From contig NZ_BOOU01000053.1 in assembly GCF_016863395.1 (NCBI RefSeq), positions 1 through 64,000 on the forward strand: a DNA stretch of 64,000 bases, in the 5' to 3' direction. The notes below the pieces were generated by a model. That model saw only the letters and a program-made list of their open reading frames with translations, had not been told where the DNA came from and ran no database searches. Of the stretch, positions 19,601 through 33,499 are shown piece after piece. Positions within the stretch are counted from its first letter, which is position 1; every line of letters begins with the position of its first letter. A program made the translations under genes and the position numbers. Source of the stretch: Sphaerisporangium rufum (GTDB lineage: Bacteria > Actinomycetota > Actinomycetes > Streptosporangiales > Streptosporangiaceae).

Positions 19601-20399
19601 CCTCGGCGCGGCGCACCGCGTCGTCGGCCGCCCCCGCGGCGCCCCCCGGGCCGGACCGGCGGGCGGCCAGCAGCCGGCCCGCGGCGGTGGCGCCGTCCTG
19701 CCGCAGGGTGCTGAGGAACCGGACCAGCCACACCGCGGTGGTGTCGTCCAGTCCCTCGCCGATGGCGGTCCGGGCCAGGAACGCGGCGTCCTCGGGCCGG
19801 CCCGTCCGCAGGGCGATCCGGGCGACCAGCCGGACCAGCTCGTCGCGCCGCTCCTCCAGCTTGGCCCGGTAGGTCTGGCAGGCGCGGGGGAGCGGCCACG
19901 CCGCCGCCAGCGAGGCGAACGGCGCGCCCCGCCACTCGTCCGCCGCCGCTCGCAGCGCCGCCAGCGCCCCGGCCAGGTCGCCCTGCTCGTACCGTTCGCG
20001 GCCCGTGGCCAGGCCGGCGGTGAACCGCTCGGTGTCCAGTGCCCGGGCGAGACCGCCCGGCTCGGTCTCCACCAGCGCGTAGGCGTGCGACCACTTGGCC
20101 GGAGGGATGTCCAGCGCGCTGCCGGCCAGGGCGCGCCGCAACCGCGACAGCGGCGGCGCCACGTCGGGCACCGGCCACTGCGGGCCCTGGCCGAGCGCGG
20201 CCGCCAGGGTGGCCTGGGGCACCGGGTGGCGGGCCGCCACCAGCATGGCCAGGGCCTTGGCCGTCTGCGGGAGGAGCTTGCGCGGCACGCCGTCCACCAG
20301 GACGCGTACGTCGCCGAGGAGTCTGATATCGAAATGCGCCACTTTCACCGCCGCACCGGTCCCGCCGATCTCGCGCGACGGCCTCCCCCGCAAGGTCAT
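16680..20399 (-). CDS. Second SARP/BTAD regulator with AAA ATPase and TPR repeats
   Basis: The protein has about 1239 residues. A SARP-type winged helix (DIRLLGDVRVLVDGVPRKLL) and BTAD domain fill roughly the first 270 residues, an AAA-type ATPase follows with Walker A GPAGTGKS (about residue 320) and Walker B LLVAFDDAHLL, and the C-terminal half is TPR-like. An in-frame minisatellite encodes a G/D/R/A-rich linker in the middle. The ATG at 20399 is chosen for its GGAG 9 bases upstream; a GTG at 20348 starts closer to the conserved domain and leaves more room (94 rather than 43 bases) to the divergent GTPase gene, so it remains possible. Likely an activator of neighbouring or distant secondary metabolism. 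Confidence 0.85.
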   Translation of the reverse strand: MTLRGRPSREIGGTGAAVKVAHFDIRLLGDVRVLVDGVPRKLLPQTAKALAMLVAARHPVPQATLAAALGQGPQWPVPDVAPPLSRLRRALAGSALDIPPAKWSHAYALVETEPGGLARALDTERFTAGLATGRERYEQGDLAGALAALRAAADEWRGAPFASLAAAWPLPRACQTYRAKLEERRDELVRLVARIALRTGRPEDAAFLARTAIGEGLDDTTAVWLVRFLSTLRQDGATAAGRLLAARRSGPGGAAGAADDAVRRAEDLLALHRHGVDAGAPLGAAEPAGGAPPLVGRRRELAALDEVAARVAGGEPAGLALCGPAGTGKSRLLAEAAAGAAARGVTTATVTCRELDGLQPWRELAGVLWAYLRRDPAAPAEPISARERDTLGKLMTAGDGGSTALPGHERDPRDLTLLVTNLLRRAAGDGLLVAFDDAHLLSPHAVELLRRVRGGLGTAPVGFLVAGRPDADTWAGALEILEPSPLSAAEVARWLAGAWGRPPAEHEVKEALRVTGGLPLELCELTMAARPAEPVAAVPDGRTPGGGPADGPGDADGPGDRAGGGPGDRAGGGPADRAGGGPGGAPVRAGGRPAGAASRDAAAATGPAGGGDADFRWLAAAAITALGVEVDAGLVARLLELPAAAADRLQAAAAAGGAVIGHDRVRFRHERSRETVLDALGRDPALARDLHRRAFAVLRERLAAARWADPSLPGRVARHARAAGTAVPEEEAAAACLAAARAAQRGFDVQGAVAWAHHGLELRCDPATRVDLLITLGDALADGGDMDQAGRRYLAAHQAAGGLPRAAAAAAVRLARRWSAPGQVDHQLLGVLAGALDSLGDDPAPPAVALRLQLLAHLAKKRTLAVGAPAGTAGGAALARETLAALPAEVDPLVRCEVLNECRWALFDHAGPAELLGLAGRLREAGIQAGSTYFESEGMVAQAVDQLRLGRFPEALGTVAEHRRHLSRNPRVLGGWLRATFDTMMDLWSGEFARAHERLAGESLAMVEELAAGQAVPVETLRQTWMAQYYWLMHERGTPGELFGAGLARQIEEHGYFPVWRAAHVLALCETGRYDEAADHLDALVRDTSGLAALPPHGWAVATAAVLAESCALLAAAGAGDAAAPVLPVLAARLSAYPREIVLAGWPAALLGPAARFRGLVALAAGDAPDAVEYFGEAVDLASGAPPQMARLSLDRARALRRAGRPGEADRLLHRSLRLAERLGMAGVAAGARSLLAEG
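18654..18755 (-). repeat. In-frame 24-bp minisatellite in the second SARP gene
   Basis: Three near-identical 24-bp units occupy 18654-18677, 18678-18701 and 18702-18725, followed by shorter units beginning GGGTCCGTCAGC at 18726 and 18744. Each 24-bp unit encodes 8 residues of the type GDRAGGGP on the minus strand. Because the period is a multiple of three, copy-number change would only lengthen or shorten a flexible linker. Confidence 0.88.
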
Positions 20400-20442
20400 C
20401 GCAAGCTTCTCCGGCCACGATGGGGCCGGTGGCGGAGAACGA

Positions 20443-21513
20443 ATGTCCATGAACGTCGCCGACGTTATGTCGTGGGGTGAGTCTGTGGCAAGGACGGCCC
20501 GAATTTCCGCGGCCGATCTCGGCGCGCGGCGGCTCGGCGAGCTGCGCCGGGCGGTGCGCGACGAGCGGGCCGCCGCGGCGGCAGAACCCCTGGTGGTCGC
20601 GGTGATGGGTGCGCCAGGAGTCGGTAAGGCCTCATTGCTCAATGCCCTTTTCGGCACCGATTTCCCGGTGGGTGGAACGAAAGAACCGCCCGGCCGGCCG
20701 GAGCTCCGTGAATCGACCGGAAACACCGGCCATATATTGAAATTTTGGGATATGCCGGGAATGGCGGATTCTTGGGCCGGACGGCCGGCGATGCTGGACG
20801 CGCTCATCACCTCCGACGTCGTCGTCTGGGCCTGCCACGCCGACGCCCGGCCCGCCGGGTGCGAGGGGGCCCGGCTGCGCGAGCTGCTCGACTCCGCCGG
20901 GCCGGACCACGCGCGGCGCGTCGGTGGCCGGATCGCCGCGGTCCTCACCAAGGCCGACCTGCTGAGCCCACCGCCATGGATCTTCGACGCCCGCGGCCGG
21001 CGCGGGTCCTTCGTGCCCGGCCCGGCGCTCGCGGCCCGGCTGGAGCGGCGGGCCGCGCGGGCCGAGCAGGCCCTGCTCGCCCCGCTCGGTGACCTGCTCA
21101 CCGCCGCCACCTATCCCACCGCCGATCCCGAAGGCCGCCCGGCCGGCATCCTGCCGGCGGATGACGGCCGGCTGCGCGGCGACCGGCACGCCGTCCGCTA
21201 CCGCGGGCACTTCTCCGGATCCGTGCACGAGCGGTACCGCGACGCCCACCCCGAGCACGCCGACGTCCTCGGCCGCCTGCGCGACGACCACCGGGTCATC
21301 CCCTGCTCGGCGCGGTTCCGCTACAACCTGCCGCGCCTGCTGCTCGCCCTGGCGACCCGGGTCACGCCCGCCGCGGTCTTCCGGTTCCAGCGGATGCTGG
21401 ACGACGCCGCCGCGCTCGCCGAGTTGCCCGCCTCCGCCGTGGCGCGGCACGCCAACCTGGTGCGGTGGGACGGCGAGCGCTGCCGCCCGGCCGTCGCCGG
21501 GCCGGCCTGCTGA
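20443..21513 (+). CDS. Dynamin-like / ribosome-assembly-type GTPase with altered G1 motif
   Basis: The 356-residue protein has the order of motifs of a TRAFAC GTPase: G1 GAPGVGKA (56-63), a possible G2 threonine in VGGTKEPP, G3 DMPG, and G4 LTKADLL. The residue that normally binds magnesium and phosphate in G1 (Ser/Thr after GK) is Ala63, with Ser64 next to it. The C-terminal 120 residues are helical and probably bind a partner. The ATG at 20443 follows GGAG by about 6 bases; a second ATG lies two codons later. It is divergent from the second SARP gene and 11 bases ahead of the small acidic repeat protein, with which it likely forms an operon. The function is unknown. Confidence 0.75.
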   Translation: MSMNVADVMSWGESVARTARISAADLGARRLGELRRAVRDERAAAAAEPLVVAVMGAPGVGKASLLNALFGTDFPVGGTKEPPGRPELRESTGNTGHILKFWDMPGMADSWAGRPAMLDALITSDVVVWACHADARPAGCEGARLRELLDSAGPDHARRVGGRIAAVLTKADLLSPPPWIFDARGRRGSFVPGPALAARLERRAARAEQALLAPLGDLLTAATYPTADPEGRPAGILPADDGRLRGDRHAVRYRGHFSGSVHERYRDAHPEHADVLGRLRDDHRVIPCSARFRYNLPRLLLALATRVTPAAVFRFQRMLDDAAALAELPASAVARHANLVRWDGERCRPAVAGPAC

Positions 21514-21523
21514 CCCGCCCGCG

Positions 21524-21898
21524 ATGGACGAGGGAAGGCGAGAGTGCGCGGACGTGGTGCCGGCCCAGGGCCGGGACGCGGGCATGGAAGCCGGCCGGGA
21601 CGCGGGCATGGAGGCGGGCCGGGACGGAGTGGAGGCGGGCCGGGACGGAGGCGTGGACGCGGCCGTGGACGAGGGGGTGGACGAGGACGAGGTGCTCCGG
21701 CTGGTCGAGCGGCACCGCCGGGAGGCCACGGCGGAACTGGCCCGGCTGGACGAGGCCGTGCACTACCGGGACGAGGCCGCGATCGAGCACCTCACCCGGT
21801 CGGCGGCCGCCCGGATCCTCGGCCTGCCCGCCGGCGAGACGCCCGACGTCGACCCCGCCCTGGTGCGCGCGGTGTGGAACTGGCTCGCCGCGCACTGA
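21524..21898 (+). CDS. Small acidic protein with N-terminal tandem repeats
   Basis: The 124-residue protein starts with about 25 unremarkable residues, then four repeats of the form GRDAGMEA / GRDGVEA, then an acidic stretch (VDEGVDEDEV). The last 75 residues form predicted helices (LVERHRREATAELARLDEAV) ending in a Trp-containing helix. Codon bias supports coding. The ATG at 21524 lies 10 bases past the GTPase stop and lacks a strong ribosome site, so coupling to GTPase translation is likely. I do not recognise a family; a partner of the GTPase is a guess from position. Confidence 0.6.
   Translation: MDEGRRECADVVPAQGRDAGMEAGRDAGMEAGRDGVEAGRDGGVDAAVDEGVDEDEVLRLVERHRREATAELARLDEAVHYRDEAAIEHLTRSAAARILGLPAGETPDVDPALVRAVWNWLAAH
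21569..21660 (+). repeat. In-frame 21-24-bp tandem repeat in the small acidic gene
   Basis: Units start at 21569, 21593, 21617 and 21638; the first two are 24 bp (GGCCGGGACGCGGGCATGGA core), the next two 21 bp. The period keeps the frame, giving repeats of GRDAGMEA type. The array accounts for the N-terminal third of the small protein downstream of the GTPase. Confidence 0.85.
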
Positions 21899-22205
21899 AC
21901 CCGGCCGCCGCCGGTCCGCTGCTCGCCGGTCCGCTGCCCGCGGGTAACGGTTCGCCGCCGGTCCCGATACCGCCCGCCGGAGGGCGTACCACCACCTTGG
22001 GTGCTCTGACCTGCGGTGATTCCCGACGCTCACCGTTCCGTAACGGCTGCGTGACCGGTATGTGATCGAATACCGGCCGGCCCGGCGCCGCTCCGCCGCA
22101 CGCGCACCCCGCAATTATGGAAAGAATGTCTATGTAAACGGTGTGGGACGGCTCGCACGGGGGAGGTGCGCGGCTTTGGGCATGCGCGGAGCGGGCGGCC
22201 CGCCG
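21899..22205 (+). promoter_or_regulatory. Probable promoter region of the PknG-type operon
   Basis: The 307 bases between the acidic-repeat gene and the operon hold no gene. They contain two inverted repeats: CCGTT-N4-AACGG (22033-22046) and CCGGTAT-N8-ATACCGG (22055-22076). An AT-rich tract follows at about 22112-22140 (TTATGGAAAGAATG, then TCTATGTAAACGG) that could hold the -10 region. The palindromes upstream of an AT-rich core suggest a regulated promoter for the genes from 22206 onward. Confidence 0.5.
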
Positions 22206-23372
22206 ATGAGCCTGGAAGGCGTCGACGACGCGCTGCGCCGGCGCGGCGAGGAGCGCGAACGCGTCGCCGGTGACCTGCTCGACCTCGACGGGCACCAGAG
22301 CGTCGCCCTGCTGTCCGGCCTGGCCCTCACCGGGGAGACCGGCCGCCGCTGGGAGCGGGCGCGCGGCCTCATCGCCACCTTGTGGTGGCTCTTCGACGGC
22401 TACCGCCGGGTGCTCGACCTCGCCCAGGAGGCCAGGGCCGCCGGCCGGCCCGACCTGGCCCGGCTCACCGCGCTGCTCGCCGGCCCGTCGGTCGAGCTGA
22501 AGCCGGAGGACGTCCCGGTCGAGCGGCGCTCGCTGCTGCGCGCCGTCGGCGAGCAGATCACCCTGGACGTCGCGCTGGCCCGGATGGACGAGGCCTACCG
22601 CGAGGCCGCCGCCACGGTCGCCGCGGTGGACGCCGCCTGGAGCGAGCTGCTGCCACCGCTGGACCGGGCCGACGCCGCCCGTCGCGCCGCCCGCGACGCC
22701 GCCACCGCCCTCGGCGAGCCCGACCCGGTGCTGGACCGGCTGGACGCCGCGGCCGCCCGGCTGCGCGAGCGCGTCACCACCGACCCGCTCGGCTCGGCCG
22801 CGCTCGGCCCGGACCTCGCCGCCGCGCTGGCCGCCGCCACCGCCCGGCTGGCCGAACTGGAGCGCGCCGCGCTGCTGCGCGAGGACCTCGCCGCGCGGAC
22901 CGGCCGGCTGGCCGCGCGCATCGACGAGGTCGCCGCCGCCGAGGCCGAGGCGCGCGCCGTCCGCGACACCGTCCAGCGGAAGATCGTCGCCCCTGGCCTG
23001 CCCGAGCCGCCCGCCCAGGCCGCCGCGCTGCGCGACCGGCTCGCCGCGCTCGGCACGGTCGGCGGGCGCTGGCTGGAACTGGCCGAGCGGCTGGCCGCCC
23101 TGGAACAGGGCGTCGAGGAGGCCCTGGCCCGCGCCCGGGCCGCCGCCGACTCGGCCGGCGGGCTGATCGGGCGGCGCGACGAGCTTCGCGGGCGCCTGTC
23201 GGCCTACCAGGCCAAGGCGTTCCGTCTCGGCCACGCGGAGGACGCCGGGCTCGCCGTGCTCTACGGCGCGGCCCGCGACCTGCTGTGGACGGCACCGTGC
23301 GACCTGCGCCGGGCGACCGTGGCGGTCGCCGAATACCAGCGGGCCATCACTCGGATCGGAGCGGCCGGATGA
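22206..23372 (+). CDS. Coiled-coil protein, first gene of the PknG-type operon
   Basis: The 388-residue protein is Ala-, Arg-, Leu- and Glu-rich and almost wholly helical, with long coiled-coil stretches (for example LAAATARLAELERAALLRED and ARIDEVAAAEAEARAVRDTV). There is no signal peptide or membrane segment. It ends by ATGA overlap with the kinase start, so it is translationally coupled to it. ATG 22206 is taken as start because MSLEGVDDAL begins the helical region; an ATG at 22182 preceded at a distance by GGGGGAGG is an alternative. No known family; a scaffold or kinase substrate is an inference from position. Confidence 0.72.
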   Translation: MSLEGVDDALRRRGEERERVAGDLLDLDGHQSVALLSGLALTGETGRRWERARGLIATLWWLFDGYRRVLDLAQEARAAGRPDLARLTALLAGPSVELKPEDVPVERRSLLRAVGEQITLDVALARMDEAYREAAATVAAVDAAWSELLPPLDRADAARRAARDAATALGEPDPVLDRLDAAAARLRERVTTDPLGSAALGPDLAAALAAATARLAELERAALLREDLAARTGRLAARIDEVAAAEAEARAVRDTVQRKIVAPGLPEPPAQAAALRDRLAALGTVGGRWLELAERLAALEQGVEEALARARAAADSAGGLIGRRDELRGRLSAYQAKAFRLGHAEDAGLAVLYGAARDLLWTAPCDLRRATVAVAEYQRAITRIGAAG

Positions 23373-25795
23373 CCAAGTGCGCCCAACCCGGATGCGCCGG
23401 GACGGTGGTGGAGGGGTACTGCGACCAGTGCGGCATGGCACCCGCCGCCCCGGCGTTCACCGGCGCCCCGCCGGCCGCCGCGCCCTACCCGGCCGCCGCG
23501 CCCTACCCGGGCGGCGCGCCGCCCGGCGCCGCCCAGCCCTCCGCCGGCCCCGTTCCGGCGCCCGGCCGCACCGCGTGGCCGTCCGCGCCGGGCGGCCCGC
23601 CCGCGGCGCCCCCCGGTGCCGCCTCCGGCCTGACCGCCTGGCCCTCCGCGGCCACCCCGGGCGGTCCGGGCCCCGTCTCGGGCGCGATGACCCGGCCGTC
23701 CATCGCCGGCACCGCGGCGACCGCCGCGTCCGGCGCCACCGGGTTCACCAGCGGCTCGCGGCGCAGCAGCAGGTCCCGGCGCGGCATGCTCGGCATGGGC
23801 CTGGTCGAGGTGCCGCCGGTGCCCTACCGCGACCCCTCGGCGGTGGTCCTCGCCGACCCTGAGGTGCCCGAGGACCGGCGCTACTGCGGCAACCCCGACT
23901 GCGGCAAGCCCGTCGGCCGCCGCCGGGACGGCCGCCCGGGCCGGCCGGAGGGCTACTGCCCGCACTGCGGGCAGCGGTTCTCCTTCACCCCCAAGCTGCG
24001 CGCCGGCGACATCGTCGCCGGCCAGTACGAGGTGAAGGGCTGCCTGGCCCACGGCGGCCTCGGCTGGATCTACCTGGCCGCCGACCGCAACCTGGACGGC
24101 CGCTGGGTGGTCATGAAGGGCCTGCTGGACACCGGCGACCTGGAGGCGCTCGCCGCGGCCGAGGCCGAACGCCGCTTCCTCACGGCGATGGACCACCCGA
24201 ACATCGTCAAGATCTTCAACTTCGTGAACCACCCCGACCCGGGCACCGGGTCGCTGGTCGGCTACATCGTGATGGAGTACGTCGGCGGCCAGTCGTTGCA
24301 GGAGATGCTCCGCGGGCGGCTGCGCGAGAGCGACAGCCGCCAGGCGCTCCCGCCGGCGCAGGTGATGGCCTACGGGCTGGAGATCCTGCGCGCCTTCGGG
24401 TACCTGCACGACCGCGGCATGCTGTACTGCGACCTCAAGCCCGCCAACGTCATCCAGGTCGAGGAGCAGCTCAAGCTCATCGACCTCGGCGCGGTGCGCC
24501 GGCTGGACGACCCCGACAGCGCGATCTACGGCACCGTCGGGTACCAGGCCCCGGAGATCGCCGCCCAGGGGCCGTCGATCGCCTCCGACATCTACACCGT
24601 CGGCCGGACGCTCGCGGTGCTCAGCGTGCCGTTCAGCCCGGCCAGTGGCGGTTCCGCGGCGCCGATCCCCGACCTCGGCCCGCACTACGAGTCCTACCAG
24701 CGGTTGCTGCGCCGGGCCACCGACGCCGATCCGGCGCGGCGGTTCCCCAACGCGGCGGAGATGTCCGAGCAGCTGGTCGGGGTGCTGCGCGAGACCCGGG
24801 CCGCCGAGGACGGCGTCCCGCATCCCGCGCCGTCCGGCGTGTTCGGCCCGGAGCGGGCGGCGGTCGGCACCGAGCTCGCCCCGGCCGCCGGCGGCCGGGT
24901 GTTCGCCCCGCTGGACCGGCGGGAGGCCACCGCGGCGCTCCCGGTGCCGCTGGTGGAGCCGCTCGACCCGGCCGCGGGGTTCCTGGCGGGCATCACCTCC
25001 GGCAACCCCGACGAGCTGATCGCGCTGCTGCAGTCGGTGCCGCCCACGCCGGAGACCAGGCTGGCGCTGATCCGGGTGATGAGCGAGCTCGGCCGGCCGG
25101 CGCCCGAGGAGCTGTACACGGCGGTCGCCGCCGAGCTGCCCGGCGACTGGCGGCTGTGGTGGTATCGCGGCGTGTACGAACTCGCCGCCGGCGACCCGGG
25201 CACCGCCGTGCGCTACTTCGACGGCCTGTACGGCTGGTTCCCCGGCGAGGCCGCGCCCCGGCTGGCGCTGGCGTTCGCCCTTGAGGCGGCCGGCCAGGGC
25301 GCCGAGGCGATCCGCCACCACGCCGCCATCTGGCGCACCGACCGCTCCTACGTCGGTTCCTGCTTCGCGCTGGCCCGCATCCTGCTGGACCAGGGCGACC
25401 CGGACGCGGCCACCCGGGTGCTGGACGAGGTGCCGCCCACCTCCATCCACCGGACCGCGGCCCAGGTGGCCGCGGTGGCGGTGACCGTACGCGGCCGGGC
25501 GCCCGCCGAGGGGGAACTGGTCGGCGCCGGCGAGCGGCTGCAGGGCCTTCGGCTCGACTCGCGCGACCGGGACGGCCTGGCCTCGGAGGTGCTGGAGAGC
25601 GCGCTCGCCCGGTTCGTCACCGGGCGGTCCGCCGGCGGCGGCGGCACCCTGCTCGGCACGCCGCTGAGCGAGCAGGGCGTGCGCGGCGAGCTGGAGCGGG
25701 TCTACCGGTCGCTGGCCCGGTCGGCGCGTTCCCCGGAGGAGCGGCACGCCATGATCGGCCGGGCCAACGCGGTGCGCCCGAGGACGCTGTGGTGA
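23369..25795 (+). CDS. pknG: PknG-like Ser/Thr protein kinase with zinc ribbons and TPR domain
   Basis: The 808-residue kinase has an N-terminal zinc ribbon (CAQPGC...GYCDQCG), a Pro/Ala linker, then a second metal site of the PknG rubredoxin type: Cys173 and Cys178 (YCGNPDCGKPVGRR) with Cys197 and Cys200 (CPHCG). The kinase domain starts near 218 with catalytic Lys250 (VVMK), catalytic Asp355 in YCDLKPAN (a non-RD form as in PknG) and metal-binding Asp372 in DLG. The C-terminal third is TPR-like (AAGDPGTAVRYFDGLYGWFP). In mycobacteria and corynebacteria PknG phosphorylates the FHA protein GarA/OdhI and so controls 2-oxoglutarate metabolism. Here the FHA gene and the GlnX/GlnH sensors are in the same operon, supporting the same role. 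Confidence 0.93.
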   Translation: MTKCAQPGCAGTVVEGYCDQCGMAPAAPAFTGAPPAAAPYPAAAPYPGGAPPGAAQPSAGPVPAPGRTAWPSAPGGPPAAPPGAASGLTAWPSAATPGGPGPVSGAMTRPSIAGTAATAASGATGFTSGSRRSSRSRRGMLGMGLVEVPPVPYRDPSAVVLADPEVPEDRRYCGNPDCGKPVGRRRDGRPGRPEGYCPHCGQRFSFTPKLRAGDIVAGQYEVKGCLAHGGLGWIYLAADRNLDGRWVVMKGLLDTGDLEALAAAEAERRFLTAMDHPNIVKIFNFVNHPDPGTGSLVGYIVMEYVGGQSLQEMLRGRLRESDSRQALPPAQVMAYGLEILRAFGYLHDRGMLYCDLKPANVIQVEEQLKLIDLGAVRRLDDPDSAIYGTVGYQAPEIAAQGPSIASDIYTVGRTLAVLSVPFSPASGGSAAPIPDLGPHYESYQRLLRRATDADPARRFPNAAEMSEQLVGVLRETRAAEDGVPHPAPSGVFGPERAAVGTELAPAAGGRVFAPLDRREATAALPVPLVEPLDPAAGFLAGITSGNPDELIALLQSVPPTPETRLALIRVMSELGRPAPEELYTAVAAELPGDWRLWWYRGVYELAAGDPGTAVRYFDGLYGWFPGEAAPRLALAFALEAAGQGAEAIRHHAAIWRTDRSYVGSCFALARILLDQGDPDAATRVLDEVPPTSIHRTAAQVAAVAVTVRGRAPAEGELVGAGERLQGLRLDSRDRDGLASEVLESALARFVTGRSAGGGGTLLGTPLSEQGVRGELERVYRSLARSARSPEERHAMIGRANAVRPRTLW

Positions 25796-26703
25796 GCGCC
25801 TGCCCCGCCTGCGGCACCGGGGTGCTGGCCGGCGAGTCGTTCTGCGAGCGGTGCGGGCACGACCTGTCGGCCGCCGTCACCGCCGCCGCCTGCGCGGCCT
25901 GCGGCTCGGCCGCCGTCGGCGCCGACGGCTACTGCGAGAACTGCGGCATGCTGCAGCCGTCCGGCCGCGACCATGTCGAGACCGACCTGCCCGGCCTGGC
26001 CGGGGTCAGCGACCGCGGCCGCCGGCACAGCCGCAACGAGGACGCCATGGCGCTGGCGGCCGCTCCGGCCGCGCTGCTGGCGGTGGTCTGCGACGGCGTG
26101 TCCACCAGTGCCCGGCCGGACGAGGCCTCCCAGGCCGCCGCCGACACCGCGGCCGGCGTGCTGGCCAAGCGGCTCGCCGACGGCGACGACCCGCAGGCGG
26201 CCACCCGCCAGGCGGTGCGGGCGGCGGCCGCGGCGGTCGCCGACGCGGCCAGGCCGGGGGAGGACGCCCCCGCGTGCACCTACGTATCCGCCGTGGTCAC
26301 CGGGCGAAAGGTCACGGTCGGCTGGGTCGGCGACAGCCGCGCGTATTGGCTCGGCACCCATTCCGCGCTGCTCACCGTGGACGACGCCACCCCGGGCACC
26401 CACATGCTCACCGCGTGGCTCGGCGCCGACGCCGGCGAGGTGGTGCCGCACGTGCGCACGTTCACCACCGACGGCCCCGGCGCCGTCGTGCTGTGCAGCG
26501 ACGGCCTGTGGAACTACTACCCCGAGCCGGAGAGCATCGCGGCCAACGCCCTCGGCCAGGCCCCCCTCGCGGCGGCGCGGCACCTGGTGCGGCTGGCGAA
26601 CGAGGCCGGCGGCCACGACAACATCACCGTCGCGGTCATCCCGTTCGGCCAGGGGGAGCCGGGCGAGACCACGGTGGCATTCCCGAAGGAGAGAAGTGAC
26701 TGA
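25792..26703 (+). CDS. PP2C-family protein phosphatase with two N-terminal zinc ribbons
   Basis: The protein has 303 residues. Two zinc ribbons open it (CPACG...CERCG and CAACG...CENCG). The PP2C domain follows with the metal-binding landmarks RNEDAM, VCDGVS, WVGDSRAYW, LCSDGLW and GHDNITV, so it should be an active magnesium/manganese-dependent Ser/Thr phosphatase. The GTG overlaps the kinase stop codon as GTGA, giving tight coupling. It probably removes the phosphates placed by the PknG-like kinase, on the FHA protein or the kinase itself. Soluble: there is no membrane segment. The ribbons match those of the kinase and FHA protein, hinting at a common docking partner. Confidence 0.92.
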   Translation: MSACPACGTGVLAGESFCERCGHDLSAAVTAAACAACGSAAVGADGYCENCGMLQPSGRDHVETDLPGLAGVSDRGRRHSRNEDAMALAAAPAALLAVVCDGVSTSARPDEASQAAADTAAGVLAKRLADGDDPQAATRQAVRAAAAAVADAARPGEDAPACTYVSAVVTGRKVTVGWVGDSRAYWLGTHSALLTVDDATPGTHMLTAWLGADAGEVVPHVRTFTTDGPGAVVLCSDGLWNYYPEPESIAANALGQAPLAAARHLVRLANEAGGHDNITVAVIPFGQGEPGETTVAFPKERSD

Positions 26704-27985
26704 CTTCAGCGTCCGCGTGGACCAGAACAAGTACCTGCCGGCGGGGAGCCAGGAGGTGCACGCGATCGTCACCGTCGAGGCGAGCGGGGCGCCCGAGCGG
26801 GCGCCGGCCGCCGAGGCCGCCGAAGTGATCATCGTGGACACGTCCGGCTCCATGTCCTACGGGAAGATCAACGACGCGCGCAAGGCCGCGCAAACCGCGG
26901 TGGACACGCTGCGCGACGGCGTCTACTTCGCGGTGATCGCCGGCAACCACCAGGCCGAGGTGATCTTCCCGCACTACGGGCGGCTGGCACCGGCCGACCC
27001 CGAGAGCCGGCAGGCGGCCAAGCAGGCCATCGCCGGGCTGCGCGCCGACGGCGGCACCGCCATGGGCCGCTGGCTGCGCCGCGCCGCCGACCTGTTCAGC
27101 GCGCACGAGGGGGCCCGCCCCGGCGCCATCCGGCACGCCATCCTGCTGACCGACGGCAAGAACGAGCACGAGCCGGCCCCCGAGTTCGACGCCAACCTCG
27201 CCTACTGTGCGGGCAAGTTCGTCTGCGACTGCCGCGGCGTCGGCACCGACTGGGTGGTCGCCGAGGTGCGCCGGATCGGCTCCACGCTGCTCGGCAGCGT
27301 GATGGACGTGCGCCGCCCGGAGGACCTCGCCGACGACTTCCGGGCGATGACCGAGGCGGCGATGGGCAAGACCGTCGCCGACGTCGCGCTGCGGCTGTGG
27401 ACGCCGCGCGCGGCCACGCTGAACTTCGTCAAGCAGGTGTCCCCGGCCCTGGAGGACCTGACCGGCCGCCGCACCCCCGTCGACGAGCTCAGCGGCGACT
27501 ACCCGACCGGCAGCTGGGGCGCGGAGTCCCGCGAGTACCACATCAGCATCCAGGTGCCCCCCGGGCAGGTCGGCCAGGAGATGCGCGCCGGCCTGGTCAA
27601 GCTGGTCGCCCCGGCCACCGGCGAGGTGTACGGCTCGGGCAACGTCCTGGCGCAGTGGAGCGACGACCCGGTCCAGTCCACCCGCATCAACCCGCGGGTC
27701 GCCCACTACACCGGCCAGCAGGAGCTGGCCGAGCTGATCCAGGAGGGCCTGCAGGCCCGCAACGACGGCGACGTGGAGACCGCGACCGCCCGGCTCGGCC
27801 GGGCCCGCGGCATCGCCGAGCGGGCCGGCAACGACGAGACCGCCCGGCTGCTGGCCAAGGTGGTCGAGGTCGACCCCGAGACCGGGACCGCCCGGCTCAA
27901 GCGGGTCGTCGACAAGGCCGACGAGATCGCGCTGGACACCCGCTCGGTCCGCACCGTCCGCATGCGCAAGGACCCGGAGGGCTGA
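26696..27985 (+). CDS. von Willebrand factor A domain protein (TerY-like) in the kinase operon
   Basis: The 429-residue protein carries a VWA domain with a complete MIDAS metal site: DTSGSM (about 50-55), the threonine of GGTAMG and the aspartate of LLTDGKN. The part after about residue 230 is beta-rich (LRLWTPRAATLNFVKQVSP) and the C-terminal 80 residues are helical. GTG at 26696 follows AAGGAG and overlaps the phosphatase end by 8 bases. VWA, PP2C and kinase triads are known from TerY-linked predicted phospho-signalling systems; here the VWA protein may present partners to kinase and phosphatase through its metal site. The assignment of role is inference. Confidence 0.9.
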   Translation: MTDFSVRVDQNKYLPAGSQEVHAIVTVEASGAPERAPAAEAAEVIIVDTSGSMSYGKINDARKAAQTAVDTLRDGVYFAVIAGNHQAEVIFPHYGRLAPADPESRQAAKQAIAGLRADGGTAMGRWLRRAADLFSAHEGARPGAIRHAILLTDGKNEHEPAPEFDANLAYCAGKFVCDCRGVGTDWVVAEVRRIGSTLLGSVMDVRRPEDLADDFRAMTEAAMGKTVADVALRLWTPRAATLNFVKQVSPALEDLTGRRTPVDELSGDYPTGSWGAESREYHISIQVPPGQVGQEMRAGLVKLVAPATGEVYGSGNVLAQWSDDPVQSTRINPRVAHYTGQQELAELIQEGLQARNDGDVETATARLGRARGIAERAGNDETARLLAKVVEVDPETGTARLKRVVDKADEIALDTRSVRTVRMRKDPEG

Positions 27986-28872
27986 TGATGGCCACCTGCC
28001 CGCAGGGCCACGAATCCGCCGACGAGGAGTACTGCGACATCTGCGGCGCGCTGATGTCCGGCGCCGCCGCCCCGGCACCGGGCGGTTCCGGCCAGGCCGG
28101 CGCCCCGGCCGGGTCCGGGCCGGCGCCCGCCGAGGCGGGGCCGGACGGTCCGTGCCCCGACTGCGGCGCGCCGCGCACCGGCCGCTTCTGCGAGACCTGC
28201 GGCTACGACTTCGTTCTCGGCGGCGGCCGGCCGTCCCCGCCGCAGGAGCGGCCCGCCGCCCCCGCCGCGCCCGCCGCGCCGGGCGGGACCACCGGATCCT
28301 GGCGGCCTGCCGAGCCCTGGCGGCCCGCCGCCCCGGTGCCCCCCGCCGCGCCGATCGCCGCCGAGACCCCCGCCGTCCCGCTGCCCACCCCGTACCCCGC
28401 CGCGCCGCCCGTCGCCCCGGACGGCGCGCCGTCCGCCGCGCCGTCCGGTCAGCCCGCCGCGCCGGCCGCCGGCTGGACCGCCGTGATCGAGGCCGACCGG
28501 GCCCACTACGACGAGATGGTCGGCCAGGGCGGCCCGGACGCCGCCGCGGTGGCGTTCCCGCCGTACTGCCCGCCGCGCTCGGTCCCGCTCACCGGCGCCC
28601 AGGTGCGCATCGGCCGGCACAGCCGGTCCCGGTCGCTGCGCCCGGAGATCGACCTGTCCGGCCCGCCGGAGGACCCCGGGGTCTCCCATCTGCACGCGGT
28701 GCTGCTGGCCGGCCCGGACGGCGGGTGGTCGCTGGTCGACCCCGGGTCGGCCAACGGCACCCTGGTCGACGGCGAGCCGGCCGAGGTCAACGTCCCGGTC
28801 CCGCTGGCCGACGGCGCCCGCGTGCATCTCGGCGCGTGGACGCTCATCACCGTGCGGAAGGCGGCGTCGTGA
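27985..28872 (+). CDS. Zinc-ribbon FHA-domain protein, candidate substrate/reader of the PknG-like kinase
   Basis: The 295-residue protein has two zinc ribbons (CPQGHES...CDICG and CPDCG...CETCG), an Ala/Pro linker of about 110 residues and a C-terminal FHA domain with IGRHS, SHLHA and SANGT, the phosphothreonine-binding core. FHA proteins bind phosphothreonine; GarA/OdhI, the known PknG target, is a short FHA protein with an N-terminal ETTS site. That site is not visible here, so it may be phosphorylated elsewhere in the linker or act only as reader. ATG overlaps the VWA stop (TGATG) and GGAGG lies 5 bases upstream. Confidence 0.9.
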   Translation: MMATCPQGHESADEEYCDICGALMSGAAAPAPGGSGQAGAPAGSGPAPAEAGPDGPCPDCGAPRTGRFCETCGYDFVLGGGRPSPPQERPAAPAAPAAPGGTTGSWRPAEPWRPAAPVPPAAPIAAETPAVPLPTPYPAAPPVAPDGAPSAAPSGQPAAPAAGWTAVIEADRAHYDEMVGQGGPDAAAVAFPPYCPPRSVPLTGAQVRIGRHSRSRSLRPEIDLSGPPEDPGVSHLHAVLLAGPDGGWSLVDPGSANGTLVDGEPAEVNVPVPLADGARVHLGAWTLITVRKAAS

Positions 28873-30290
28873 CCGTCCAGGCCCCCGCTCCCGCCGCCCC
28901 GGCGCCCGCCGCCGCCGCCCCGCCCGCCGCGCCGCGCCGCCGGGTGCGGACCGTGCCCGGGTGGATCCGCCTGCTGGTGACCGTGGTCGTGGTCGCCGCC
29001 GCCGCCCTGTTCGCGGCGGTCACCGTCTCCATCGGCCACGCCCGCGACGGCCTGCGCTCCATCGGCCACACCGCGGGCCCGCAGGTGGTCGCCACCGCCG
29101 ACCTGTACTTCGCGCTCAGCGACATGGACGCCCAGGTCGCCAACCTGCTGCTCACCGGCCGCCAGAGCGGCGGCCGGCAGGCGATGCTCGACCGGTACGA
29201 GGAGCGCCGCTCGCAGGCCGACCGGGCCGTGCTGGAGGCGGCCGACCTGGCCGGCGACGACGCGACCGGGCGGATGACCGTGCGCGCCGTGCTCGACGGG
29301 CTCGGCCGCTACGAGCGCCTCGCCGAGCGCGCCCTGGTGCTCGCCGAGCGCGCCCCGGCCGGGGACGGGCCGCCGCCGGCCGCGGTGCTGGAGGTCTACC
29401 GCCAGGCCACCGATTTGATGCGGCTGGACCTGCTGCCCAAGGCCTACAACCTGACCCTGGACAGCGGCACCATCGTCCGGCGCTCCTACCTGGCCGAGCT
29501 GTCGGCGGTGCGGGCCGGCCGGGTGTGGGTCGCGGTCACCGGCCTGCTCGCGCTGGCCGCGCTGGTCGCGCTGCAGGTGTACCTGAGCCGCCGGTTCCGC
29601 CGCACCCTCAACCTGCCGGTGCTGGCCGCCACGGTCGTCGCCGCCGGGCTGGCGGTGGCCGCGGTGGTCGTGCTGCAGCGGGAGGCCGGCGCGCTGGCCC
29701 GCGCCAAGGAGGACGGCTTCAACTCCGTCCTCGCCTTGTCGCGGGCCCGCGCCATCGGCAACACCCTGCACGGCGACCAGAGCCGCTACCTGCTGGACCC
29801 GCAGCGGGCCGACACCTACGAGCAGGTGTATCTGGACAAGTCGCAGGCCGTCTTCTACCTGCCGGCCGGCAACCTGGACAAGTACTACGCCGCCGTGGAC
29901 CGCGGCGTGGCCGGCTACCCCGGCCGGGCCGACTTCCTGGGGTTCTACGGCTCGGAGGCCGCGCACGTCACCCTGCCGGGCCAGCGCGAGTCGATCAGCG
30001 AGACGCTGAAGCTCTACCAGGCCTTCCAGCAGGCCGACCGCCGGCTGCGCCAGGCCGCGGCCGGCGGCGACCGGCAGGCCGCGGTCGCCCAGGCCATGGG
30101 CCCGGCCTTCGCCTCCTACGACGACGCGCTGGTCCGGCTCACCGGCCTGCATCGCACCGCGTTCGACGCCGCGGTGGCCGAGGGCGACGCCGCGCTGCGC
30201 GGCTGGGAGTGGGTGCCTCCGGCGGCCGCGCTGGCCGCCGTCCTGCTGGTGCTGATCGGGGTCCGGCCCCGGCTCGCCGAGTACCGCTGA
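28869..30290 (+). CDS. glnX: GlnX-like four-helix membrane sensor
   Basis: The 473-residue protein has four membrane segments at about 33-56, 219-240, 249-270 and 450-468. The two loops outside the membrane, about 57-218 and 271-448, are helical and look like tandem four-helix-bundle sensor domains. The N-terminal 30 residues are Pro/Ala-rich and cytoplasmic. This layout matches GlnX, the mycobacterial membrane protein that transfers the amino-acid signal from lipoprotein GlnH to PknG. The GTG overlaps the FHA stop (GTGA) and the GlnH-like gene follows 13 bases later. The assignment rests on topology and context more than on motifs. Confidence 0.75.
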   Translation: MTVQAPAPAAPAPAAAAPPAAPRRRVRTVPGWIRLLVTVVVVAAAALFAAVTVSIGHARDGLRSIGHTAGPQVVATADLYFALSDMDAQVANLLLTGRQSGGRQAMLDRYEERRSQADRAVLEAADLAGDDATGRMTVRAVLDGLGRYERLAERALVLAERAPAGDGPPPAAVLEVYRQATDLMRLDLLPKAYNLTLDSGTIVRRSYLAELSAVRAGRVWVAVTGLLALAALVALQVYLSRRFRRTLNLPVLAATVVAAGLAVAAVVVLQREAGALARAKEDGFNSVLALSRARAIGNTLHGDQSRYLLDPQRADTYEQVYLDKSQAVFYLPAGNLDKYYAAVDRGVAGYPGRADFLGFYGSEAAHVTLPGQRESISETLKLYQAFQQADRRLRQAAAGGDRQAAVAQAMGPAFASYDDALVRLTGLHRTAFDAAVAEGDAALRGWEWVPPAAALAAVLLVLIGVRPRLAEYR

Positions 30291-30303
30291 AGGGAACGGG
30301 TCA

Positions 30304-31149
30304 ATGCTCACGCTCCTTCGCGCCGGCCGGCCGCGCCGCGCCCGGCGCCGTGCCGGGCGGGTCGCCGCCGTGGCGCTCGCCGTGGCGGCGGTGCTGCCCG
30401 CGGCCACCTCCTGCGCCGCCGGCACCTCGATCCTGGACGGGGATTCGCTGGTCATCGGGGTCAAACCCGACCAGCCGGGTCTCGGAGTCCGCGACGCGTC
30501 CGGCAAGTTCACCGGGTTCGACGTCGACGTGGCCACCTACGTGGCCGGCAAGCTCGGCAAGACCGCCAGGTTCGTCGCCGCGCCGTCCGCCACCCGCGAG
30601 GCGATGATCATGCAGGGTCGGGTGGACCTGGTCTTCGCCACCTACTCGATCACCCCCGAGCGCAAGACCAAGGTCTCCTTCGGGGGGCCGTACTACGTGG
30701 CCCACCAGGACACGCTGGTCCGGTCGGGGGAGAGCGGCGTGTCGAACGTCCGCGATCTGCGCGGCCGGCGGCTGTGCCAGGTCACCGGCTCCAACTCCTG
30801 GCGGCGGGTGAAGGAGGAGCGCAAGATCCCGGTGGAGCTGGTCCAGTCGGCCTCCTACAGCGAGTGCGTCCGGGACCTGAAGGAGGACCGGGTGGACGCG
30901 GTGTCCACCGACGACCTGATCCTGGCCGGCTTCGCCACCGCGGGCACCAAGATCGTGAACGCGCCGTTCAGTGACGAGCGGTACGGCGTCGGCATCCGCA
31001 GCGGTGACATCGACGGCTGCGAGGCGGTGAACAAGGCGATCACCGAGATGTACCAGGACGGCACCGCCCGGCGCCTGCTGCGCAAATGGTTCGCCGAGTC
31101 GGGGCTGGCCCTCAACTTCGCCGTCCCGCAGTTCGAGGGCTGCGGCTGA
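30304..31149 (+). CDS. glnH: GlnH-like glutamate/aspartate-binding lipoprotein
   Basis: The 281-residue protein has a lipoprotein signal with lipobox ATSC (Cys37) and a class-3 periplasmic amino-acid-binding domain: VIGVKPDQPGLGVRDASGKF, TGFDVDVATYVAGKLG, ATYSITPERKTKVSFGGPYY, RRLCQVTGSNSW. It would sit on the outer face of the membrane and bind acidic amino acids or glutamine. No permease or ATPase gene follows, so it acts in sensing, not import, as GlnH of Mycobacterium does with GlnX and PknG. GAAGGGA lies upstream of the ATG. It is the last gene of the operon. Confidence 0.9.
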   Translation: MLTLLRAGRPRRARRRAGRVAAVALAVAAVLPAATSCAAGTSILDGDSLVIGVKPDQPGLGVRDASGKFTGFDVDVATYVAGKLGKTARFVAAPSATREAMIMQGRVDLVFATYSITPERKTKVSFGGPYYVAHQDTLVRSGESGVSNVRDLRGRRLCQVTGSNSWRRVKEERKIPVELVQSASYSECVRDLKEDRVDAVSTDDLILAGFATAGTKIVNAPFSDERYGVGIRSGDIDGCEAVNKAITEMYQDGTARRLLRKWFAESGLALNFAVPQFEGCG

Positions 31150-31215
31150 CCGCCCGGGGCCGCCCGGTCGCCGTCCCGGTTGCCGCCCGGCACCGGGGGC
31201 CGGTATGAAGGCGGG

Positions 31216-31989
31216 ATGTCCAGCCCGCAGACCGGCGCCGCGCCGCGCCGGCGCATCCCGTACGGCCCGCACCCCGACCAGTGGGGCGAGCTGTGGCCGC
31301 CGGCCCCGGCCGGCGGCCCGCCGCCGGTGGCCGTCCTGGTGCACGGCGGCTACTGGCGGTCGGTCTGGGAGGCCGGCCTGATGGACGCGCTGGCCGCCGA
31401 CCTGGCCGGCCGCGGCTTCGCCGCCTGGAGCCTGGAGTACCGCCGGCCGGACCGGCACGGCTGGGCGGCGACCACCGCCGACGTGGCCGCCGGGCTGGCG
31501 GCGGTGGCCGCCCTGCCGGGGGTGGACCGCGGCCGGGTCGCGGTCGTCGGCCACTCGGCCGGCGGGCAGCTCGCGCTGCGCGCCGCCGCCGATGACGGGC
31601 GGGTCGCGCTCGCGGTATCGCTGGCCGGCGTGCTGGACCTGGTGGAGGCGCACCGGCACGGCCTCGGCTCCGGGGCGGTCGCCGCCGCCCTCGGCGGCGA
31701 TCCGGAGTCGCTCCCGCAGGTGTACGCCGCCGCCGACCCGATGGCCCGGCTGCCCCTCGGCGTGCCGCAGCTGATCGTGCAGTGCACCGAGGACGATCCC
31801 GGGCTGGTGGCGGTCAACCGCGGCTACGCCCGGGCGGCCGGCGCGGAGGCGACCTACCTGGAGCGGCCCGGCGACCACTTCGCGGTGATCGACCCGGCGA
31901 CCCCCGTCTGGCGCGAGGTCGCCGCCGAGCTCGCCGCCCGGCTCGGCCCCCCGGCCGGGCCACCGGTCAGCCCTCCGCCATCGGGCTGA
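31216..31989 (+). CDS. Alpha/beta hydrolase, probable kynurenine formamidase
   Basis: The 257-residue hydrolase has HGGYWR, the oxyanion motif characteristic of kynurenine formamidases, the nucleophile elbow GHSAGG, an acidic residue in CTEDDPG and a late histidine in GDHF. It would hydrolyse N-formylkynurenine to kynurenine and formate. The tryptophan dioxygenase gene that makes this substrate lies 570 bases downstream, with an Lrp regulator between on the other strand. ATG 31216 follows GAAGGCGGG; a TTG at 31180 is less likely. Its 3' end overlaps the Lrp gene by 23 bases. Other esterase roles cannot be excluded. Confidence 0.72.
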   Translation: MSSPQTGAAPRRRIPYGPHPDQWGELWPPAPAGGPPPVAVLVHGGYWRSVWEAGLMDALAADLAGRGFAAWSLEYRRPDRHGWAATTADVAAGLAAVAALPGVDRGRVAVVGHSAGGQLALRAAADDGRVALAVSLAGVLDLVEAHRHGLGSGAVAAALGGDPESLPQVYAAADPMARLPLGVPQLIVQCTEDDPGLVAVNRGYARAAGAEATYLERPGDHFAVIDPATPVWREVAAELAARLGPPAGPPVSPPPSG

Positions 31990-32410
31990 GCGCCCGCCAC
32001 GGCATCGGGCTGGACAGCATCATCATGCTGGACGGCTGGCCGTGCGGCGCCAGCCGGTCGATCAGATCCTCGAAGGCCGGCATCGAGGTGGTGGCCACCC
32101 GCAGCAGGCAGCAGGTGTCCCCGGTCACCCGGTGCACCTCCACGATCTCCGGCCAGGCCAGCACCGCCCGGTCACGCAGCACGCAGCGGGCCCCGTAGCA
32201 CGACATGCGGATCAGCGCGGCGACCGTGCGGCCCGCGCGCGCCAGGTCCACCCGGGCATGGTAGCCGGCGATGACCCCGGCCTCCTCCAGGCGCCGCACC
32301 CGCTCGGCCACCGCCGGCGCCGACAGGTGCACCCTGCGGGAGAGCTCGCTGTAGGACAGCCGGGCGTCCGCCTGCAACTCGCCCAGCAGTGCCCAGTCCA
32401 TCGCGTCCAT
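31967..32410 (-). CDS. Lrp/AsnC-family transcription regulator
   Basis: The 147-residue protein has a winged helix-turn-helix (LLGELQADARLSYSELSRRV, HLSAPAVAERVRRLEEAGVI) in the first 60 residues and an AsnC/RAM ligand-binding domain after it (VLAWPEIVEVHRVTGDTCCL). Such regulators form dimers to octamers and respond to amino acids. Its gene is divergent from tryptophan dioxygenase (151 bases between starts) and convergent with the formamidase-like gene, so control of tryptophan breakdown by tryptophan or a product is the obvious inference. GGGAGG precedes the ATG. Confidence 0.92.
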   Translation of the reverse strand: MDAMDWALLGELQADARLSYSELSRRVHLSAPAVAERVRRLEEAGVIAGYHARVDLARAGRTVAALIRMSCYGARCVLRDRAVLAWPEIVEVHRVTGDTCCLLRVATTSMPAFEDLIDRLAPHGQPSSMMMLSSPMPWRALSPMAEG

Positions 32411-32560
32411 CGCGTCCCTCCCTCACGCTGCGTCATCCCCGAACCGGTACCGCCCGCACACCTCGCGTCCGGCAAGCGAACCGGGCGGATCACCTTGCGT
32501 TCATCCTTTCACCACCCGCCCCGGCCCGGCGACGATGGGGTGGGACACCGAGAGGCGGAG

Positions 32561-33442
32561 ATGACCAGCAGACGGCGGGCGGCAGGCGCCCGGATACGGC
32601 CCGGCGGCGCCCGGCAGCGGGCGATCCGGACGGCGGCGAACCGGGGCGCGCCCACGCTCGACTTCCCGGCGCAGACCCCCTACGACGAGTACGTGGGCGC
32701 CGAGACGCTGCACCGGCTGCAGCGCACGGTGACCGACATCCCGGAGGAACGCGCCTTCCTGGTCACCACGCAGATCATGGAGCTGTACTTCGGGCTGCTG
32801 CGCGCCGAGTGGCTGCTCGTCCAGCGCCTGCTGGACGGCGGCGACGCGGCCGGGGCCACCGCGGTGCTGTCCCGCAGCACCCGCTACTTCGACGGGCTGA
32901 ACGCCGCCTGGGGGGCGCTCGGCTGGATGACGCCGGCGCAGTTCAACTCCTTCCGCGACGACCTCGGCGAGGGCTCGGGGTTCCAGTCGGCCATGTACCG
33001 GCACCTGGAGTTCCTGCTGGGCAACAAGTCGGCGGCGCTGGTCCGGCCGCACCGCCGCAGCCCGCGGGTGCACGGCGAGCTGCTGGCCGCGCTGGACCGG
33101 CCCAGCCTGTACGACAGCGTGCTCGCCCTGCTCGCCCGGCGCGGCCTGGCCGTCCCGCCGCCCGGCGACCCGCGCGCCGAGTACGTGCCGAGCCAGGCGG
33201 TCGAGGACGCCTGGGTGGAGATCTACGCCCGCGGCCCCGGCGACGACCTGCACGACCTCGGCGAGGCCCTCACCGACGTCTCCGAGCGCTTCACCGACTG
33301 GCGCTACCGCCACCTGATGTCCGTGCGGCGCACCATGGGCGCCAAACCGGGCACCGGCGGCTCCAGCGGGGTGAGCTGGCTGGAGCGCAGCCTGCGCCGC
33401 GAGGTGTTCCCCGAGCTGTGGTCGGCCCGCACCCGCATGTGA
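32561..33442 (+). CDS. kynA: Tryptophan 2,3-dioxygenase
   Basis: The 293-residue protein is a heme-dependent tryptophan 2,3-dioxygenase, which opens the indole ring to N-formylkynurenine. Signatures include YDEYVGAETL near the start, QIMELYFGLLRAEW, LGWMTPAQFNSFRDDLGEGSG (substrate-binding region), SAMYRHLEFLLGNK and the heme-ligand segment YRHLMSVRRTMGAKPGTGG. Length fits the family. ATG follows AGAGGCGGAG. With the formamidase-like gene it would carry tryptophan to kynurenine; kynureninase is not in the window. Confidence 0.93.
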   Translation: MTSRRRAAGARIRPGGARQRAIRTAANRGAPTLDFPAQTPYDEYVGAETLHRLQRTVTDIPEERAFLVTTQIMELYFGLLRAEWLLVQRLLDGGDAAGATAVLSRSTRYFDGLNAAWGALGWMTPAQFNSFRDDLGEGSGFQSAMYRHLEFLLGNKSAALVRPHRRSPRVHGELLAALDRPSLYDSVLALLARRGLAVPPPGDPRAEYVPSQAVEDAWVEIYARGPGDDLHDLGEALTDVSERFTDWRYRHLMSVRRTMGAKPGTGGSSGVSWLERSLRREVFPELWSARTRM

Positions 33443-33499
33443 TCACCCGGCGCGGCCGCACGGGGTAGGACGGCCGATCGGCGGGGTAGGGAAGCGCGG

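Follow-up and report, generated by a model that had tools for sequence, protein, structure and literature searches.

PknG, a much-studied bacterial Ser/Thr kinase, is encoded in mycobacteria and corynebacteria together with the membrane sensor GlnX and the solute-binding protein GlnH, and its pathway has been reported to depend on both of these proteins (PMC6069109, PMC9769921; these and all other papers are cited here for selected passages). The passages used from PMC6069109 name the three genes of the mycobacterial operon and state that the operon is conserved in Actinomycetales; the word phosphatase is absent from the text of that paper as searched. Here we describe a seven-gene relative of this operon at positions 22206-31149 of a 64,000-nucleotide stretch of contig NZ_BOOU01000053.1 (C53) from the 7.8 Mb genome of Sphaerisporangium rufum. 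This whole stretch is referred to below as the window, and coordinates are those of the window unless a contig is named.

Two other described systems combine comparable parts. In the Arn module of Sulfolobus, ArnA consists of a zinc finger and an FHA domain, the kinase ArnC phosphorylates the C terminus of the VWA protein ArnB, and the phosphatase PP2A reverses this modification (PMC6509490, PMC12852372, PMC7472852). The FHA domain of ArnA binds the Thr-phosphorylated C terminus of ArnB, and the zinc finger binds weakly, in a loose complex (PMC12852372). The crystallised VWA protein 4FX5, which is Caci_2163 of Catenulispora, has a VWA domain, a beta-sandwich and a C-terminal helix bundle as in the ArnB paralogue (PMC6509490) and is again listed with the ArnB architecture in PMC12852372, where proteins of this architecture are placed mostly outside ArnAB-like multi-phosphorylation processes; the neighbourhood of its gene is not a topic of the cited passages. 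In the TerY-P system, the genes for kinase, PP2C and VWA are adjacent, and the kinase bears a C-terminal zinc ribbon (PMC11090510).

The locus in the window consists of seven plus-strand genes in one block, with the following features:

22206-23372, plus strand: CC, 388 residues, a coiled-coil protein according to an earlier note on this DNA, conserved with the operon
23369-25795, plus strand: PknG, with an N-terminal cysteine segment (seen by eye), rubredoxin, Hanks kinase and C-terminal TPR
25789-26703, plus strand: PP2C, Ser/Thr phosphatase with an N-terminal double zinc ribbon
26696-27985, plus strand: VWA, 4FX5-type (Catenulispora) protein with the Pfam domains VWA and VWA_3_C
27938-27955, plus strand: VWA tail motif, residues 415-420 (TRSVRT), candidate phosphorylation site
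27985-28872 (start at 27985 or 27988), plus strand: FHA, candidate reader other than GarA, with an FHA domain (1.3e-10) and zinc-ribbon-like CxxC pairs
28869-30290, plus strand: GlnX, membrane sensor, NCBIfam NF058618 'GlnX family'
30304-31149, plus strand: GlnH, solute-binding protein (SBP_bac_3, 1.2e-30), probable lipoprotein

We propose that this operon encodes a nutrient-responsive phosphorylation circuit composed of a sensor module and a cytosolic module, a reading whose chances we regard as evenly balanced and whose steps are set out below. The seven-gene block is real, and the identities of PknG, GlnX and GlnH are borne out by curated families or solved structures. The earlier note, made from the letters alone, had described seven genes that overlap or nearly touch, and this holds: in gene order the overlaps are 4, 7, 8, 1 and 4 bases, followed by a 13-base gap before GlnH. 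Its assignments of PknG, GlnX, GlnH, PP2C, VWA and FHA likewise all find support in Pfam, NCBIfam or PDB matches. The kinase contains all the parts that define the PknG family, namely rubredoxin (PknG_rubred, 7.2e-25), a Hanks kinase domain (Pkinase, 8.6e-28) and the PknG TPR region (PknG_TPR, 1.8e-77), and matches the PknG structure 2pzi with E 5.4e-157; of 117 PknG rows, some or all of them partial matches, 83 show the kinase motif pattern. GlnX scores 289.7 bits against NF058618 (cut-off 250) and 44.6 bits, below the cut-off of 780, against the narrower equivalog NF041460, with no Pfam match over its cut-off. The phosphatase matches PP2C_2 (6.1e-15) and DZR (3.4e-6; 27.6 bits, cut-off 27.3); among 91 PP2C matches examined, the NED, GD-R and DN-T/S motifs are present in 90, 86 and 90, respectively, and at least two CxxC pairs precede NED in 87. 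A GarA-like ETTV sequence at the C terminus of the window's PP2C was rejected as unconserved, any [DE]T[TS] being found in 3 of 102 tails. CC has no match in Pfam, NCBIfam or PADLOC and no PDB relative (best E 0.039); it carries a conserved ELRG ... APCDLR stretch at its C-terminal end and is probably a structural adaptor.

GlnH matches the GlnH structure 6h1u with E 4.3e-31. In the M. tuberculosis protein, the ligand is contacted by R147, which holds its side chain, and by T162, W232, S164, R169 and D250 (PMC6069109). By pairwise alignment, mapped by eye, all of these contacts but W232 are kept in the window's GlnH. Among 118 homologues, the equivalent of R147 is Arg in 117, that of T162 is Thr or Ser in 113, that of S164 is Ser or Thr in 118, that of R169 is Arg in 116 and that of D250 is Asp in 101. 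The ligand is likely to be Asp or Glu, as far as conserved residues allow this to be read.

The order of the genes is kept in other genomes, where the earlier note had proposed to look for it, so that one of the two outcomes named there as refuting the note does not apply. A scan of named genomes with a VWA alignment gave at least 574 confirmed relatives, the best 80 of which define 80 loci, a set that leans to close relatives because only these were kept; the nearest named VWA relatives (the genome's own records possibly being excluded) are from Sphaerisporangium and Microtetraspora and are 80-85% identical. Counting matches of at least 30 bits after overlap removal, the window order CC-PknG-PP2C-VWA-FHA-GlnX-GlnH is found in 37 of the 80 loci, from genera that include Sphaerisporangium, Nonomuraea, Actinomadura and Nocardiopsis, and a permuted order, GlnX-GlnH-CC-PknG-PP2C-VWA-FHA, in 27, from Streptomyces, Kibdelosporangium and Saccharothrix; in all of these 37 and 27 loci the matches lie on one strand. 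The remaining 16 are cut by contig ends, miss one or two genes or contain an extra match; no GlnX or GlnH match was found in L136 (Pseudonocardia), no GlnH match in L135 (Kutzneria) and no PP2C or FHA match in L132. The whole seven-gene set stands together in loci from 13 named genera, and the block is therefore not a product of chance. With respect to these and the other loci that we collected (L numbers), the overlap rule wrongly dropped FHA from L052, L062 and L078, where it is present with E of about 1e-79 or better, and the stretches of L039, L043, L049, L059, L063 and L165 are cut by contig ends, so that absences there mean little.

Two loci of the window's own family depart from the full set. 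In L041, all that is left of VWA between PP2C and FHA is a weakly matching piece (phmmer 6e-9), and L043 has neither VWA nor FHA beside PknG; both keep PP2C, and no VWA was found in either genome at E 1e-20. These loci can be considered natural experiments on the role of VWA.

In a class sample of 148 genomes, PknG_TPR scores over its cut-off in 39, at 51 places, all of which were read with the same 30-bit and overlap rule; PP2C lies near PknG in 29 of the 51. Because VWA lies beside PknG at 31 of the 51 places but at none of the 11 in family f4, the published three-gene operon looks like a reduced form of the extended locus. Family f4, which looks mycobacteria-like from its gene order and best Pfam model scores, shows GlnX-GlnH-PknG at 9 of its 11 places and PknG alone at the other 2, and neither PP2C (0/11) nor VWA nor FHA was found beside PknG in these stretches of about 19.5 kb. 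This bears out the view of the earlier note that the mycobacterial locus comes without a dedicated phosphatase or VWA protein. Searched for alone at E 1e-20, VWA is present in 26 of the 148 class genomes, in none of the nine PknG-bearing f4 genomes, and in 9 of 246 genomes of an overlapping phylum sample. The five families that have at least two rows each make up one side of a branch of the PknG tree (support 89/86 for f18; f17, f4, f1 and f26 are starred); f4, f1 and the f17/f26 group meet at an open fork, with f18 outside. Given this branching, the simplest account, which we offer as a lead, is that the extra genes were lost once, at the origin of f4, provided that the tree is not rooted on the branch to f4; the tree is drawn with a midpoint root and contains some long branches (L049, L162, L058, L044). 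The PknG papers cited here deal with lineages whose locus is, judged from these data, a reduced one. If the extended form is ancestral, antibiotic producers have a pathway equipped with its own phosphatase and with another branch that has gone unstudied.

The two sets of genes are separable, because PP2C-VWA-FHA is absent in f4 and GlnX-GlnH is absent in two loci, L186 and L187, from two genomes of one genus. The latter encode CC, a PknG-like kinase, PP2C, VWA and FHA, with no GlnX or GlnH within 19.5 kb, and their kinases score 26.5 and 25.7 bits for rubredoxin (cut-off 28.5) and have no PknG_TPR match. Outside the class, L185 has CC-PknG-PP2C-VWA-FHA with GlnX-GlnH nearby on the other strand. 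It thus appears that the presence of the sensor genes is tied to that of the TPR domain, as seen in two related loci, and that PP2C-VWA-FHA accompanies the kinase. There are also 11 divergent second copies of PknG (four in f18 and seven in f17), with VWA beside six of them (L048, L160, L164, L058, L059, L167). The f17 divergent copies of L063, L167, L058, L053, L066 and L165 face GlnX-GlnH pairs encoded on the other strand. In L063 and L167, two such pairs surround a single kinase, as if receptors had multiplied.

The VWA profile matches 4fx5 over positions 3-425 of 425 with E 1.4e-172. We compared 101 VWA sequences that score above 450 bits and end in a stop codon: that of the window together with 20 sequences from L039-L078 and a further 80 from L079-L158, the low-scoring partial VWA of L049, L159-L169 and later loci being left aside. 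The MIDAS residues D48, S50, S52, T121 and D153 are present in 101/101. In the tail, S417 is kept in all 101, T420 is conserved in 100 and replaced by Ser in one, and T415 is Thr in 89, with more variable residues between these positions. The motif [DE]TxSxxT, which was defined after the alignment had been seen, occurs in the last 60 residues of 88/101 VWA tails as opposed to 0/605 other VWA pieces; it is also present at 23 of 3743 other frame ends (frames of at least 200 aa, L079-L158), a count that excludes the 80 VWA frames, 75 of which have the motif. The [DE]-T-x-S start of the motif may be compared with the ETTS site of GarA, a resemblance and no more.

GarA, the known effector of PknG, is not the FHA protein of the operon. 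The GarA orthologue of this genome, with a zinc ribbon, a DTTST stretch and an FHA domain, lies at C53:88121-88627, about 57 kb downstream of the operon, and is followed by a MerR gene, a gene with a bifunctional-nuclease domain and a further gene read as MerR-like. The MerR/bifunctional-nuclease combination is the usual garA neighbourhood of mycobacteria. The identification of the operon FHA protein with GarA is ruled out by this separate orthologue, and the suggestion of the earlier note that the whole circuit, reader included, seems assembled in the operon does not hold for GarA; the known effector is encoded outside the operon. The two proteins are alike in their FHA domain, and the zinc ribbon of GarA in this genome recalls the CxxC pairs of the operon FHA protein. 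The latter is nevertheless a different reader: it differs from GarA/OdhI in gene neighbourhood and shows, by eye, no ETTS-type site before the FHA domain. The phosphothreonine-pocket residues (R, S, H and N-G) are invariant in 16 aligned FHA sequences, and at least two CxxC pairs are present in 83 of 92 homologues. The genome has seven FHA places in all. Another FHA protein, in L038 (C44 near 240971-241186), has a 505-aa frame in which a cysteine-pair segment directly precedes a C-terminal FHA domain. The ribbon of the genome's GarA (Zn_Ribbon_1, 5.2e-10, N-terminal to DTTST) weakly matches PknG_rubred (0.0015).

These data allow for a plain PknG-GarA pathway in which PP2C dephosphorylates GarA, PknG is tuned by VWA, FHA and CC acting as scaffolds, and there is no second output. 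The presence of the DTTST-bearing GarA orthologue on the same contig, a single PknG_rubred match in the whole genome and an NF006914 match on C58 (1170 bits), presumably oxoglutarate dehydrogenase E1, all fit such a pathway. We nonetheless consider it unlikely, albeit worth keeping in view: the conserved phosphothreonine pocket of FHA and the near-invariant Ser/Thr tail of VWA suggest a phospho-dependent contact of their own, and in L188 PP2C-VWA-FHA occurs with no PknG match in the fetched stretch.

Starting from what is observed, namely the genes present and their synteny, the motifs for catalysis and binding, the conserved tail and the separate GarA, we infer the interactions and phosphorylations of the proposed two-module circuit as follows. 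By homology with the published pathway, binding of Asp or Glu by GlnH would be relayed by GlnX to PknG, probably to its TPR domain. PknG would act as the writer, the zinc-ribbon PP2C as the eraser, VWA as both scaffold and substrate, and the cysteine-pair FHA protein as the reader. PknG would phosphorylate GarA, which would then release 2-oxoglutarate dehydrogenase (both GarA and the NF006914 protein being encoded in this genome), and would also phosphorylate the conserved Ser/Thr tail of VWA. The FHA protein would dock on the phosphorylated tail, its CxxC segment adding a weak hold that does not depend on phosphate. PP2C would reverse the phosphorylation, as PP2A does for ArnA-ArnB and ArnC in archaea. 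More tentatively, and with some doubt, we suggest that VWA and FHA are a bacterial counterpart of ArnA-ArnB wired to PknG as a second output besides GarA and lost in mycobacteria; if this is true, the loss explains why the switch has gone unseen in work on model organisms. The parts are familiar; new are the way in which they are arranged, the finding that GarA is separate and the reading as an Arn-like switch. Our literature search, the scope of which left out most subscription journals, returned no title or abstract start that describes the seven-gene operon. The proposal makes it testable whether the PknG signal has an eraser of its own besides a general one (Ppp in C. glutamicum) and what role the solved VWA protein 4FX5 plays and, if correct, would link a starvation switch of archaea with a system found in bacteria.

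Both chain sequences of the ArnAB structure 8s05 match profiles from the operon, chain A (ArnB) that of VWA over the VWA domain (2.4e-8) and chain C (ArnA) that of FHA (1.7e-7; 3.3e-7 for ArnA in 5a8i). Like the Arn module, the operon places a cysteine-bearing FHA protein next to a VWA protein, which probably has the three domains of ArnB (as judged through 4FX5, PMC6509490), and combines these with candidate Ser/Thr sites at the C terminus of VWA, a kinase with a TPR-like region and a probable nutrient input. In this sense, the actinobacterial operon appears to set comparable, Arn-like parts beside a kinase and a phosphatase. The differences are that the Arn phosphatase is PP2A and that of the operon PP2C; that the kinase layout is different and arnC (saci_1193) lies apart from arnA-arnB (saci_1210, saci_1211); that the Arn output is archaellum expression; that the FHA CxxC pairs, unlike the zinc finger of ArnA, have no Pfam zinc-ribbon match (at E 0.01); and that there is no close sequence kinship, nor any mention of GlnX or GlnH in the cited Arn passages. 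Compared with the GlnX-GlnH-PknG operon of mycobacteria and corynebacteria, the sensor, the solute-binding protein and the TPR kinase are homologous and the acidic-ligand residues largely kept, but CC, PP2C, VWA and FHA are added, and in the window's family the sensor genes stand 3'.

Several observations weigh against the circuit or its Arn-like part. The Arn link would rest on architecture, neighbourhood and CxxC pairs, the last without the ribbon match just mentioned. ArnB is not the nearest structure to VWA, being outscored by 4cn8, 9c4f and 6fpy, and the FHA profile, which matches 45 PDB chains at E 0.1, ranks 1uht ('expressed protein', 1.7e-11), GarA (8.2e-10) and others above ArnA. T415 is missing in 12 of the 101 VWA rows, including five from f17 that have Ala there, so that the constant core is S417 plus T420 and not every tail resembles the GarA site. 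Conservation of the tail, which lies inside the crystallised 4FX5 chain, could instead serve folding. The C. glutamicum phosphatase Ppp already reverses phosphorylation of OdhI (PMC9769921), and control of GarA therefore needs no PP2C in the operon. Five of the 11 divergent PknG copies (L162, L053, L063, L066, L165) have no VWA beside them. In GlnH, the equivalent of W232 is Tyr in the window and, among the 118 homologues, Tyr in 51, Gln in 34, Trp in 14 and Ile, Leu, His or others in the rest, and that of K161, which contacts the ligand through water in M. tuberculosis (PMC6069109), is Ala in the window and in 58.

The earlier note had also likened the locus to TerY triads, a likeness that proves weak; the archaeal ArnA-ArnB module comes closer. 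A TerY-P-like or other conflict or defence switch made of kinase, phosphatase and VWA would account for the adjacency of these three genes (as in PMC11090510) and for the zinc-binding domain found with them, and PADLOC gives 32 model matches for the kinase (best PD-T4-6, 2.5e-31) and one for PP2C (PDC-M21C, 2.9e-8). We regard this explanation as highly improbable: the PADLOC matches of the kinase, among the 25 of 32 that were listed, mostly cover the kinase domain, and CC, VWA and FHA match no model; the kinase has an N-terminal rubredoxin and a C-terminal TPR region rather than a C-terminal zinc ribbon; FHA and sensor genes are added; and the PknG tree follows the families, as vertical inheritance predicts.

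A further possibility is that the VWA/FHA arm controls development, or a secretion- or motility-like machine, in filamentous actinobacteria and not metabolism. ArnA-ArnB controls archaellum expression (PMC6509490, PMC12852372), and in S. rimosus a VWA protein, SRIM_014225, which may be the operon VWA or another one, is phosphorylated at stage SII (PMC9600765). The nine frames that neighbour the operon (16680-22114 and 31180-35040) contain no secretion or developmental genes, and four f26 genomes of 4.2-5.1 Mb also carry the extended form. The genera with named extended loci are mostly filamentous, and the mycobacteria-like f4 has no such arm beside PknG; on balance, we judge this explanation improbable.

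A promoter scan returned 0 sites, and the single terminator-like site is no more than expected from shuffled sequence. ARAGORN places a tRNA-Gly inside pknG (24905-24983, plus strand), which is likely a false positive of GC-rich coding sequence. Thirty bases 3' of GlnH lies an alpha/beta hydrolase gene (31180-31989, plus strand), followed by a tryptophan 2,3-dioxygenase frame (32042-33442, plus strand); a unit for tryptophan-kynurenine catabolism may begin here. Upstream of the operon, a large BTAD/AAA_16/TPR regulator is encoded on the minus strand (16680-21110), in a region where both strands have overlapping open frames; the plus-strand frame at 20095-21513 has a weak GTPase match.

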